Origin: Sarcodiotheca gaudichaudii
Lineage: Eukaryota > Rhodophyta > Florideophyceae > Gigartinales > Solieriaceae
Length of the DNA stretch: 27,464 nucleotides
Assembly (NCBI GenBank): GCA_032355985.1
Contig: JAUKVZ010000018.1
Span: 1 to 27,464 of the forward strand
Direction: 5' to 3'
Shown here: piece after piece, positions 10,047-27,437 of the stretch
Layout: each line of letters opens with the position of its first letter
Position numbering within the stretch: the first letter of the stretch is position 1
The notes under the pieces: generated by a model
Told to the model about the DNA's origin: nothing
The model's database searches: none
Seen by the model: the letters and a program-made list of their open reading frames with translations, nothing else
Program-made: the position numbers and the translations under genes

Positions 10047-10472
10047 ATGCATTTGAGGTTAAATTTAAGACAAGTGCTTTTACAAAAATACGACGCGTTG
10101 GACTGTCAAAGTACTGAGTTATCTTCAGATGTTTTGGAAATGCACTTGATTCAAAATCATGATGCAGTACTTAAAAAGAGTCCTAGTGCTTACCATAAAA
10201 CGTTAGCCTTAGAGTTTTTGTCAACACAGAAGGTGTTGCATAGTACAGCGTCAAAGTCGTATCAATTAAATAACAAAGTAGTTACTACAATAAGAAAAGA
10301 TAATTACTTTCTGCTTCTAGATTACTTTACCAACACCATTCTGTTGTCTACTAAAAGTAAAGATGTAGTAAAAACACATGACAATCCTATTTTAAAAAAT
10401 TACTTAGTCGTATCGGAAAATCCTATTTCTTTTACTTCTATTATGATTAAAAGTAAATCATGTATTCAATAA
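10047..10472 (+). CDS. 141-residue protein, possibly a divergent ribosomal protein L5
   Basis: A full-length frame with ATG, no TGA codons and no transmembrane segment, placed between trnA and trnQ upstream of cob. The region near residues 50-100 recalls uL5: LALEFLSTQKV resembles the bL/uL5 ALELLTGQKP segment, is followed by SKSYQLNNK where L5 has KSIAGFK, and then by TIRKDNYFLLLDYFTNTILL where L5 has TLRGxxMYxFLDRLIxxxLP. The flanks do not align by eye. The protein is basic in its second half, as ribosomal proteins usually are. rpl5 persists in the mitochondria of cyanidiophyte red algae, so retention here would be possible but unusual. I leave the symbol blank because the match is weak. 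Confidence 0.6.
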   Translation: MHLRLNLRQVLLQKYDALDCQSTELSSDVLEMHLIQNHDAVLKKSPSAYHKTLALEFLSTQKVLHSTASKSYQLNNKVVTTIRKDNYFLLLDYFTNTILLSTKSKDVVKTHDNPILKNYLVVSENPISFTSIMIKSKSCIQ

Positions 10473-15052: not shown

Positions 15053-15070
15053 GTTAATTTTTAAATAGAA

Positions 15071-15182
15071 GTATTAACCAACCAAGATTCTCAAAACAAA
15101 ATAATAGTCTTGGTAAAATTACGTTACATCCGAGTTCGGTATGGGATCGGGTACTTAACAACGCAATTTTTTAAGTTAATAC
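15071..15182 (-). rRNA. rrn5: 5S ribosomal RNA
   Basis: On the minus strand the universal 5S core CCCGATCCCATACCGAACTCGG occupies about 15130-15150. The two ends pair perfectly as helix I (GTATTAAC with GTTAATAC), and CCAAGA pairs with TCTTGG as helix IV/V. The length of 112 nt is close to the family's 115-120. Mitochondrion-encoded 5S rRNA is known in some red algae and is easily overlooked. It lies between nad3 and rps11. The covariation-style evidence visible here (closing stem plus core) makes this a confident call. Confidence 0.92.
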
Positions 15183-19832: not shown

Positions 19833-20399
19833 TGAGTCTAGACTGACTTGAACAGCCAACCTTACGCTTATCAAGTTACAATTGGAAACACTACGCTGAC
19901 GTAGTACAACCTTTGCTCCAAAACCAAACGCGATAGTTTCCCATCATTAGGCTCCTTATTTACTTGTTTTAAGTAAATACGTAAATAGCAGTTTAATTTT
20001 TATTTTACAAAAAACTTTTTACTACTAAATACAATCCTATAATTCTTAATACGTTTTAATTTTTTTGTCTTATGAGATTTTTAGGACCCTGCTTTATAAC
20101 GAGGTTTTTAGAGAGTTAGAGATTGTATACGCTGCAACCCCTCAAACTAACCTAACTATGTTAAAGTAACGATATTTTCAACAGGTTTCTGTACGTGACC
20201 TTGAATCTACTACGGTAAAATAATTTCACCTAGCTCCAATTTTACAATTGTAGGCTCCGAATAAACGCTAAACTCTATAACGGTAAGACTTCCACTTACA
20301 CAAAAAAATTACTTAAAGAAAAATTTCTATACATAATATATTAATATTTTTGTATAAACGTAACACACGCGTATGCTCTAACCTTTAAGCTATAGACTC
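19833..20399 (-). tRNA. trnI: tRNA-Ile (anticodon GAU), split by a group II intron
   Basis: The 5' exon (20369-20399) reads GAGTCTATAGCTTAAAGG, D-arm, and the 5' half of the anticodon stem TACGC. The 3' exon (19833-19874) starts TTGATAAGCGTA. Joined, the exons form a 73-nt tRNA with acceptor GAGTCTA/TAGACTC, stem TACGC/GCGTA and loop TTGATAA (anticodon GAT). The exon boundary is at the first base of the anticodon loop. A trnI split by a group II intron between nad4 and nad5 is a known feature of florideophyte mitochondria. Confidence 0.92.
19875..20368 (-). other. Group II intron in trnI (no ORF)
   Basis: The intron is 494 nt. It begins GTGTG, the group II 5' consensus, and ends AC (consensus AY). 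Domain V lies at 19921-19954: 34 nt, with the AGC catalytic triad in GAGCC, a GAAA tetraloop and a bulge before TTTGG. The following stretch (19876-19920) folds as domain VI, including CTACG/CGTAG. No maturase frame is present, so splicing must rely on proteins encoded elsewhere. This accounts for the long gap between nad4 and nad5. Confidence 0.9.
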
Positions 20400-25335: not shown

Positions 25336-25577
25336 TCTGTATAGTGGGCTTTTAATCTCAGGAAATTAGTACTTTTGCGTTTCAACTTTTTTGTAATGTA
25401 ATCATCTAACACATTAACTAGTGCGTTAAATAAATATATGTTTAGATATGACCCAAACAAACAAGTTAAGTGTTCTGTGGAAGTATAAAAATCTCCAAAA
25501 TGAGTATTTCTATACCCCATTTTACGTAATGATCTACTTTTGATACCAAGACATGGCAAACCTTGTTTTGATTTGAT
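25336..25577 (-). other. Unassigned open stretch downstream of orf619
   Basis: About 80 codons are open on the minus strand between the orf619 stop and trnS(gcu). The phase is the same as orf619. Read from a TTG at 25559, the product contains GIKSRSLRKMGYRNTHF, a hydrophobic YLNIYLFNALVNVL patch and a basic KKLKRKSTNFLRLK tail. Under code 4 the frame stays open through trnS and into trnR (to 25221), so it has no sensible end of its own. I recognise no family; it may be untranslated 3' sequence, a remnant of a longer frame brought in with orf619, or a small gene. Confidence 0.3.
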
Positions 25578-27437
25578 TTAAAGGAGTATAGGTTTCTTTT
25601 TAGCTTTTATGATGATCGGTTTGTCTCGTGTAACTATAAATTTATCTTTACGTTCAGAAATTGCAATACGTAATCCGCCACTACCAGCTAATGAGTACAA
25701 GTTTTCCAACAAATACTGTTTTTTACGTCGATAGTTAGGGTCCGTACCTACAAAACAGTACATTTTTTGCAGAACTTTGCGAACTTCGAAAGTTTTAGGG
25801 TATCTGCCTATTGCCACAGAATTGGTTATTAAGCCATATAAATAACGTTGGACGGTGTTAAGTCTTTTTTCTGTATTTAAATCGTAAATGCAATAATTTT
25901 TGTTGGCCTGAAACAATATTTTAACAAACAGTTCATTTAGTTTAATTTTTAAACTGTGATGAGTTTTTCATTGGATTATTTCGTAGTTCATTATGAAGCT
26001 TGTACCCGTAACCAATTTATGTTCACTTACAAGTACTTTGTATCTAATTGATGTAGCGGCGAAAGCTTCCAAAGATTTATAAAATCTCGTTCTAAAACTA
26101 CCACCGTCTTGTTGACGCAATTGTTTCGCAACTGCTGGTATATTTATACAAAATGTACCAGCACAATCTGCAGTGGTACTTTGTTGTTTACACTGATTGA
26201 GAATAGACATAAAGACACCGTAGTCAAAACCGTTCAAAGCATAGGGTACATTTACTTTAACTTGATTATTTTCATTTTTTACAATGGTAAATACCTCGGG
26301 CCTACAATTTTTATTTGGTTTATACGCAAAGGGAAAAAACGCATTGCTGCATTTTAGGAAATTAGAAGTTTCTTTTTCTCGTTTTTCTCCTGTTACATTA
26401 TGAAATAGTTGGCTATTATTTTTAATGGCTTTGCAACCACCACTCAAATAAAATCCCAATGCTTTTTTATTTATTACGTAAACATAGGCATTTTGGACTG
26501 TACGTTCCACGTAAAACGGGTTTTCATCAAATTTTGTTCTGTATCTAAGTTTCATAAGAAGGAATTTTGCCATTGCAATTAAATTTTCTGATGTATTTTT
26601 ACCCATAAATTTATACAAAAATATACATAACTGAAAATCGTATTCTGAAGGACTTTTTGATCCTTTTTCTTGCAAAATATCTAAATATATATCATAGAGT
26701 ACTGAGCATTCAATACTTCGCAAGACACCCAATGCTTCTTTTTCACCATCTGGGGTTAATTCTACATTACCCCAAATTTGGATTTTATGATTTTTTATTT
26801 TGTGCTTTAGAGTTGATTTAAAGTAGATGGTTTGTAAAGTATCCGTAGAAATAGCCTGCTCAAACAAAGGTTTTTTATACTTCAAAAAACCTGGCCATTG
26901 TTCACCTGTCATAGTTACCGCTCTATGTTTATTTTTTCTAAAAACTTCCAAAGTTATCTTCGGAAATTCAATTGTGGGTGGAAGTGTACTTCGAAGATTG
27001 GAGTACCAATTGGTAATCATAAAAACGTGTAATCCTGTTTTTGATGGACTAAATTCAACATAACATTCTTCTAAACCGTTTAATATTTCTTGAACGTAAG
27101 GCGAAAGTACAAATACATTGTCTTTTCGTTGTATGCAATGGTCAATATCTAAAACTGTAAAATTTGTGTTGTGGAATCCAAAAGAAACCCCTAACCTATT
27201 CGCAGGGTAATTTGATCTGGGCGCTAACTCTGCCAAAGCGTTTAAATCAAATAATTTAAACGGTTTCTTTTTCTGCAACCCTTTGATTAACTTTACTGTG
27301 GGTTCAGTTGTATATACGGGATAAGGTATTTTTCGTGTTCCTTGTCACTGCCAAAAACAAAAATTAGGTGAAGTACTAATTTTTGGAGGTAAACTATTAT
27401 TATTTTTGATGTAAGCAACTGTTAAACGGTTTATCAT
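25578..27437 (-). CDS. Plasmid-type primase-polymerase with replication-initiator-like C-terminus (orf619)
   Basis: Under code 4 this is one 619-residue frame from an ATG at 27437 to a TAA, with two TGA Trp codons (residues 31 and 490) beside four TGG. An AEP primase-polymerase fold fits residues 25-180: FCFWQWQGTRKIPYP at the start, acidic pair LDIDHC (D97, D99), SPSKTGLHVF (S130-H137) and TLEVFRKNKHRAVTMTG (E164, R172, T177-G178). Residues about 262-318 (SPSEYDFQLCIFLYKF ... ENPFYVERTVQNAY) resemble the helix-bundle domain that follows such primases in phages and plasmids. From about 415 on, FDYGVFMSILNQC, IPAVAKQLRQQDGGSFRTRFYKSLEAF and, after 540, RYLYGLI and FEVRKVLQKM resemble winged-helix plasmid replication initiators. 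No helicase motifs are seen. It is first in the leftward block and most likely came from a mitochondrial plasmid. Domain calls are by eye. Confidence 0.85.

Follow-up and report, generated by a model that had tools for sequence, protein, structure and literature searches.

What is an unbroken frame of 619 codons, bearing the motifs of a primase, doing among the genes of a red algal mitochondrion? The frame, which we call orf619, lies in a stretch of 27,464 nucleotides from Sarcodiotheca gaudichaudii (GCA_032355985.1, contig JAUKVZ010000018.1), the whole of which is the window discussed here. The gene content around orf619 identifies the window as mitochondrial DNA: rRNAs and tRNAs were identified by Rfam and ARAGORN, Pfam matched TatC, S12, ATP synthase B, YMF19 and an SDH membrane subunit elsewhere in it, and cox, cob, nad and further genes were named by eye from their translations. 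An earlier note, written from the letters of the sequence, had taken orf619 for a plasmid-derived replication gene settled in mtDNA and joining an AEP primase-polymerase to an initiator-like region. Our analysis partly supports that interpretation. The mitochondrial setting is shown by the neighbouring genes, the AEP domain and the plasmid origin are supported, and the initiator is plausible.

Part of the background is already published: plasmid genes of DUF1368 have been reported, as has a single mitochondrial homologue, in Palmaria palmata. DUF1368 is described as a plasmid-borne family specific to red algae (PMC5217408, PMC4814812). Lee et al. 2016 describe homologues of Pp6427 orf3 on red algal plasmids and, as pseudogenes, in plastids; the single mitochondrial homologue reported there is in Palmaria palmata mtDNA, and homologues were not found outside red algae in that survey (PMC4814812). 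From shared plasmid frames we infer that DUF1368 and the Pp6427 orf3 family, to which orf44 of Palmaria palmata mtDNA belongs, are one and the same. Plasmid members of DUF1368 are ORF1 of Gle4293, ORF1 and ORF4 of Gch7220, ORF1 of Gch3937 and ORF1 of Gro4970. Complete plasmid frames of the Pp6427 orf3 family have 405-485 aa (PMC4814812), and since the DUF1368 model takes up 404 positions, a full AEP domain would not fit beside it; judged from these published lengths, the plasmid frames would lack one. The text of Lee et al. 2016 contains no word that starts with 'primase' (PMC4814812), and in the literature searched (mostly titles and abstract openings) we found no AEP part, no domain order like that of orf619 and no function for DUF1368.

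The features of orf619 are as follows.

25578-27437, minus strand (27437 to 25578): orf619, a complete frame from ATG to stop, 619 codons in code 4
26838-27413, minus strand: AEP primase-polymerase domain, about aa 9-200, by profile, motifs and fold
26460-26753, minus strand: likely helix bundle, about aa 229-326, which overlaps the first part of the DUF1368 match
25701-26687, minus strand: DUF1368 match, aa 251-579 (PF07112, E 9.4e-30, 104.2 bits against a cut-off of 25)
25857-26252, minus strand: tentative first winged helix resembling Rep3_N (PF01051) and RPA (PF10134), about aa 396-527
25626-25871, minus strand: possible second winged helix, about aa 523-604, by its predicted H-E-H-H-E-E order

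Does this frame look like a gene of its host genome? Its extent agrees exactly with the earlier description, which left the strand unstated. Two in-frame TGA codons, at positions 31 and 490, are read as Trp in code 4; under table 11 both would be stops. When the bases of orf619 were shuffled 300 times, the longest stop-free run was 191 codons. Codon usage fits that of native mitochondrial genes: orf619 scores 0.148, within the range spanned by 17 of them in the same window (0.094-0.310), whereas by the same measure its shifted frames come out at -0.065 and 0.008, and shuffles of its bases have a mean of -0.009 (sd 0.023). The intact frame probably still makes a protein. It may be settled and even functional, on three grounds: its intactness, its codon usage and the catalytic residues that it keeps.

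Those residues lie in the N-terminal part. The primase motifs read there earlier (D-x-D, S-x-x-x-x-G-x-H and E...R...TG) are all present, with catalytic residues kept, as D97-x-D99, S130-P-S-K-T-G135-L-H137, E164, R172 and T177-G178. The phage family phrog_1829 (DNA primase) matches aa 16-318 with an E-value of 1.3e-15, phrog_13901 matches with 1.2e-10, and in tblastn aa 14-379 align with a Bacillus badius plasmid primase (E 6e-7). Against the PDB, phmmer matched the NrS-1 primase weakly (E 0.033); a profile built from orf619 and four plasmid or phage primases matches NrS-1 chains strongly, with much contributed by the four relatives.

How well are the catalytic positions conserved? We compared orf619 in two alignments, one with the same four primases and one with 27 relatives picked from 80 loci (28 rows). 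Residues D97, D99, E128, S130, S132, G135 and H137 are invariant throughout both alignments. P131 and T175 are found in all 28 rows of the larger alignment and differ in one phage of the smaller, and E164, R172, T177 and G178 are conserved in at least 90% of rows. The 27 relatives without orf619 yield a profile that gives it 103.9 bits, against 4.4 bits for the best of 500 shuffled copies, and aa 1-200 alone score 89.4 bits. In this profile search the AEP assignment was borne out, as it was by the motifs and by the fold described below.

The protein has nevertheless diverged from these relatives. It keeps 21 of the 28 columns that are near-invariant among them and has the commonest residue in just 75 of 250 well-filled columns; left out one at a time, the relatives keep a median of 97% (lowest 62%) of near-invariant columns. 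The changed ones, with the relatives' residue first, are A54L, A68L, G85S, G133K, Y166F, G253D and W303F. On our reading of the alignments, Y166F appears to fall at the position of NrSPol Y146, where Phe occurs naturally in other primase-polymerases (PMC8718748). The SPS loop of NrSPol (S108-P109-S110), in which S108 is required for activity (PMC8718748), is present in orf619 as S130-P131-S132.

The AlphaFold model of the whole protein has a mean pLDDT of 59.9 and a pTM of 0.43. Within aa 11-190, 12 of 18 ten-residue blocks reach a pLDDT of at least 80, and the lowest has 49. All six Foldseek matches of this model below E 0.001 are to NrS-1 polymerase; the best has an E-value of 3.2e-9. TM scores by target are 0.42-0.50 with an rmsd of 12-16 over both domains (0.49 and 13.6 for the best). 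The input alignment for AlphaFold included AEP proteins, so the predicted AEP fold is partly dependent evidence. Condensin and JetABC complexes at Foldseek ranks 10 and 47 are weak matches, given without an aligned range, and are not counted. There is no Walker A pattern in orf619, where the sole GK precedes N, and no helicase family was found in it by Pfam. Profile, motifs and fold together support an N-terminal part of the NrS-1 type at aa 9-318, an AEP domain with a probable helix bundle.

The helix bundle assignment stood in part. AlphaFold places helices at aa 229-241, 245-258, 263-278, 283-297, 301-305 and 309-325, with block pLDDT of 77-85 over aa 261-320 and 58-66 ahead of aa 261. The relatives-only profile extends to aa 318 and gives 11.4 bits to aa 201-345 taken by themselves, where the best shuffle has 4.4. 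PF22763, the Pfam model for the bundle, on the other hand, does not match orf619 at E-values up to 10. The helices and the profile signal lie where the DUF1368 match begins, so DUF1368 probably opens with a helix bundle.

The DUF1368 match also supports the plasmid origin proposed at the outset, since aa 251-579 belong to a red algal plasmid family. In 200 prokaryotic genomes, from the phylum of the genome that carries locus L113, no DUF1368 match rose above the cut-off. Two weak matches were seen there, one (L183) inside NADH dehydrogenase and the other interrupted by stops. A Pfam survey at E 0.01 covered 56 proteins, orf619 and those of 55 of the 80 loci, and listed 22 families; DUF1368 appeared in two of the 56, orf619 and L084. 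The L084 match, which lies in its helix bundle, has an E-value of 0.0057 and was set aside as evidence because DUF1368 matches near E 0.007 can arise by chance.

We read orf619, with a probability of about 0.68, as a replication gene from a lineage of red algal plasmids (DUF1368), now in mtDNA and adapted to the mitochondrial code, with roles in priming and in origin binding that we infer. Beside orf619 we found no iterons, no plasmid-like arrays and no unusually stable hairpin, which makes a free plasmid seem a likelier partner for it than the mtDNA.

Could orf619 instead be a recent plasmid insertion, silent and not yet decayed, while working copies reside on plasmids? The lack of origin-like repeats nearby would agree with this, and the plastid members of the Pp6427 orf3 family described by Lee et al. 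are pseudogenes without exception (PMC4814812). Yet every catalytic motif residue is kept, the codon usage falls within the native mitochondrial range and TGA is read as Trp. A recent arrival would hardly be expected to show the last two features, except where its plasmid is itself resident in mitochondria. We regard a silent insertion as rather unlikely and prefer to see in orf619 a plasmid gene that has adapted to its present code.

What does the C-terminal part of such a gene do? Two regions patterned like winged-helix initiators had been proposed for it, and the resemblance to Rep3_N and RPA makes this plausible. Against the C-terminal 240 residues, PF01051 (Rep3_N) gives an E-value of 0.0038 over positions 10-129 of its 141, with 18.0 bits where the cut-off is 22.4; with a longer C-terminal piece the E-value weakens to 0.0061. 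PF10134 (RPA) gives 0.017 with 240 residues and 0.013 with 290 (15.1-15.5 bits against a cut-off of 27). The search for Rep_3 families thus did not reach the curated threshold for either model, and the two matches fall on overlapping stretches of orf619. A separate Rep_3 profile was built from 16 proteins of nine genomes, some sharing one genome (16 of 17 places, one with an internal stop being dropped). It scores the C-terminal part at 11.1 bits, above all of 1000 shuffles (best 7.8). When the same part was aligned to Rep_3 by hhalign, 183 columns matched with an E-value of 0.023 and a probability of 2%.

Structure prediction is of less help here. In the whole-protein model most blocks of aa 331-520 have pLDDT below 50. 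Further on, AlphaFold predicts helices at aa 523-542, 552-560 and 569-584 and strands at 548-551, 590-594 and 599-603, in blocks of pLDDT 51-78. Modelled alone, the C-terminal 240 residues reach a pLDDT of 46.9, and a PDB search with that poor model returned nothing below E 0.001.

The C-terminal part might be some other domain, DNA-binding or structural, that is peculiar to DUF1368. The sub-threshold Pfam scores, the hhalign probability and the poor isolated model all lean that way. Against it, matches to two initiator families coincide on one stretch, the separate Rep_3 profile beats every shuffle, and the H-E-H-H-E-E order is predicted at aa 523-603. We judge a domain of another kind to be unlikely. 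A Rep_3/RPA-like winged-helix initiator at about aa 396-604 is the likely reading, drawn from weak resemblance and short of demonstration.

Is the combination of AEP domain and initiator-like part found elsewhere? A single-sequence search of viral contigs with the whole of orf619 gave no close relative. The whole protein matches 24 phage and 6 plasmid records, on the AEP and bundle side only; the C-terminal part alone gave 20 pattern matches and 0 relatives in viral contigs, and in a plasmid collection no relative at E 1. AEP frames were present at 163 of 164 prokaryotic or viral loci (L001-L164), representing 148 distinct sequences. The Rep_3 profile found none among these 163 at E 0.1 (the best was 0.13, 5.2 bits). 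Forty-two of the frames are shorter than 400 aa, and among the 121 that are longer, 75 carry a strict Walker A motif; some of the other 46 (L006, L010 and L084) have the Pfam families D5_N or DnaB_C. In the survey of 56 proteins HBD was found in 28, D5_N in 9, AAA_25 in 5 and DnaB_C in 3, and neither Rep3_N nor RPA was among the 22 families. In a tree of the AEP and bundle domains (58 rows retained from 130 that were nearly full-length), orf619 sits on an end branch of 4.76, without a supported position.

The surroundings of orf619 hold several further features.

25336-25559, minus strand: open stretch of 74 codons from TTG, starting 18 bases past the end of orf619 and extending into trnS; Pfam gives no family
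10047-10472, plus strand: frame of 141 codons between trnA and trnQ; no Pfam match
15070-15182, minus strand: mitochondrial 5S rRNA adjoining nad3 (Rfam, 39.3 against a gathering score of 38)
19875-19956, minus strand: catalytic part of a group II intron between nad4 and nad5, barely above the Rfam gathering score
24-272, plus strand: frame of 82 codons ahead of the rRNA genes; no Pfam match

Coralline red algae are reported to carry a trnI containing a group II intron between nad4 and nad5 (PMC6279150). The 74-codon stretch may be a plasmid remnant or non-coding. By its place in the gene order, the 82-codon frame may be rpl20. If the window is circular, this frame and orf619 would be read divergently from starts some 50 bases apart, an arrangement in which a two-way promoter is possible. 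That orf619 has been domesticated to prime or restart mtDNA replication, its C-terminal part binding a mitochondrial site, is very improbable: the gene is intact and codon-adapted and on a circle would start near the 82-codon frame, before the rRNA genes, but plasmid DNA is spread sporadically in red algae and not as a conserved mitochondrial gene (Lee et al., PMC4814812), and a candidate binding site sought near orf619 was not found.

How might the product of a DUF1368 plasmid gene work in a mitochondrion? The N-terminal domain, by its family, motifs and fold, would make and extend primers. The helix bundle, if it acts as work on the NrS-1 and pRN1 proteins suggests, would bind the template and the first nucleotides for primer start. 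Through Rep_3-like tandem winged helices, the C-terminal DUF1368 part would recognise an origin, either of a plasmid or in mtDNA, and would position the primase there. With a helicase supplied by another protein, that helicase and the organelle polymerase would then complete the copying. Such a protein most likely serves a plasmid that is, or until recently was, maintained in these mitochondria.

A bolder version is that orf619 is a working mitochondrial replicator in one chain, whose Rep_3-like part binds a specific origin while the AEP domain primes and copies there, and that DUF1368 plasmids descend from such a primase-initiator. We hold this to be speculative and doubtful. If it were true, no host primase would be needed, and some DUF1368 plasmids would have lost the primase or else would have it hidden by frame calls in the wrong code. 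Under the broader reading, a plasmid replication gene now in mtDNA, orf619 links DUF1368 to phage-type primases and, less firmly, to plasmid initiators. It offers a testable model for the replication of DUF1368-type red algal plasmids and is an unusual case of an organelle genome in which a single chain pairs a primase with a probable initiator.

Which known systems come closest? The DUF1368 plasmid proteins share the match over aa 251-579; orf619 differs from them by about 250 residues with an intact AEP domain in front. NrS-1 polymerase and its phage and plasmid relatives have in common with orf619 the AEP motifs, the SPS loop, a probable helix bundle and the fold, but orf619 is without the helicase part that is usual, though not required, among them and has the DUF1368/Rep_3-like part in its place. 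Plasmid initiators of the Rep_3 and RPA families are of the RepE, Pi and RepA type. Their likeness to orf619 is weak and extends across nearly the full Rep3_N model and 183 Rep_3 columns; orf619 differs in scoring below the cut-off, in the iterons, of which none were seen, and in being joined to a primase. Plasmid primases are typically fused to helicases, according to a review in which RepA, RepB' and RepC of RSF1010 are described as separate proteins (PMC4538821). In RSF1010 an AEP primase and an initiator serve one replicon (PMC4538821), as we propose for orf619, which would work like the RepB' primase and the RepC initiator fused. What RSF1010 distributes over three proteins, orf619 would carry without the helicase, its primase and initiator-like part in a single chain.
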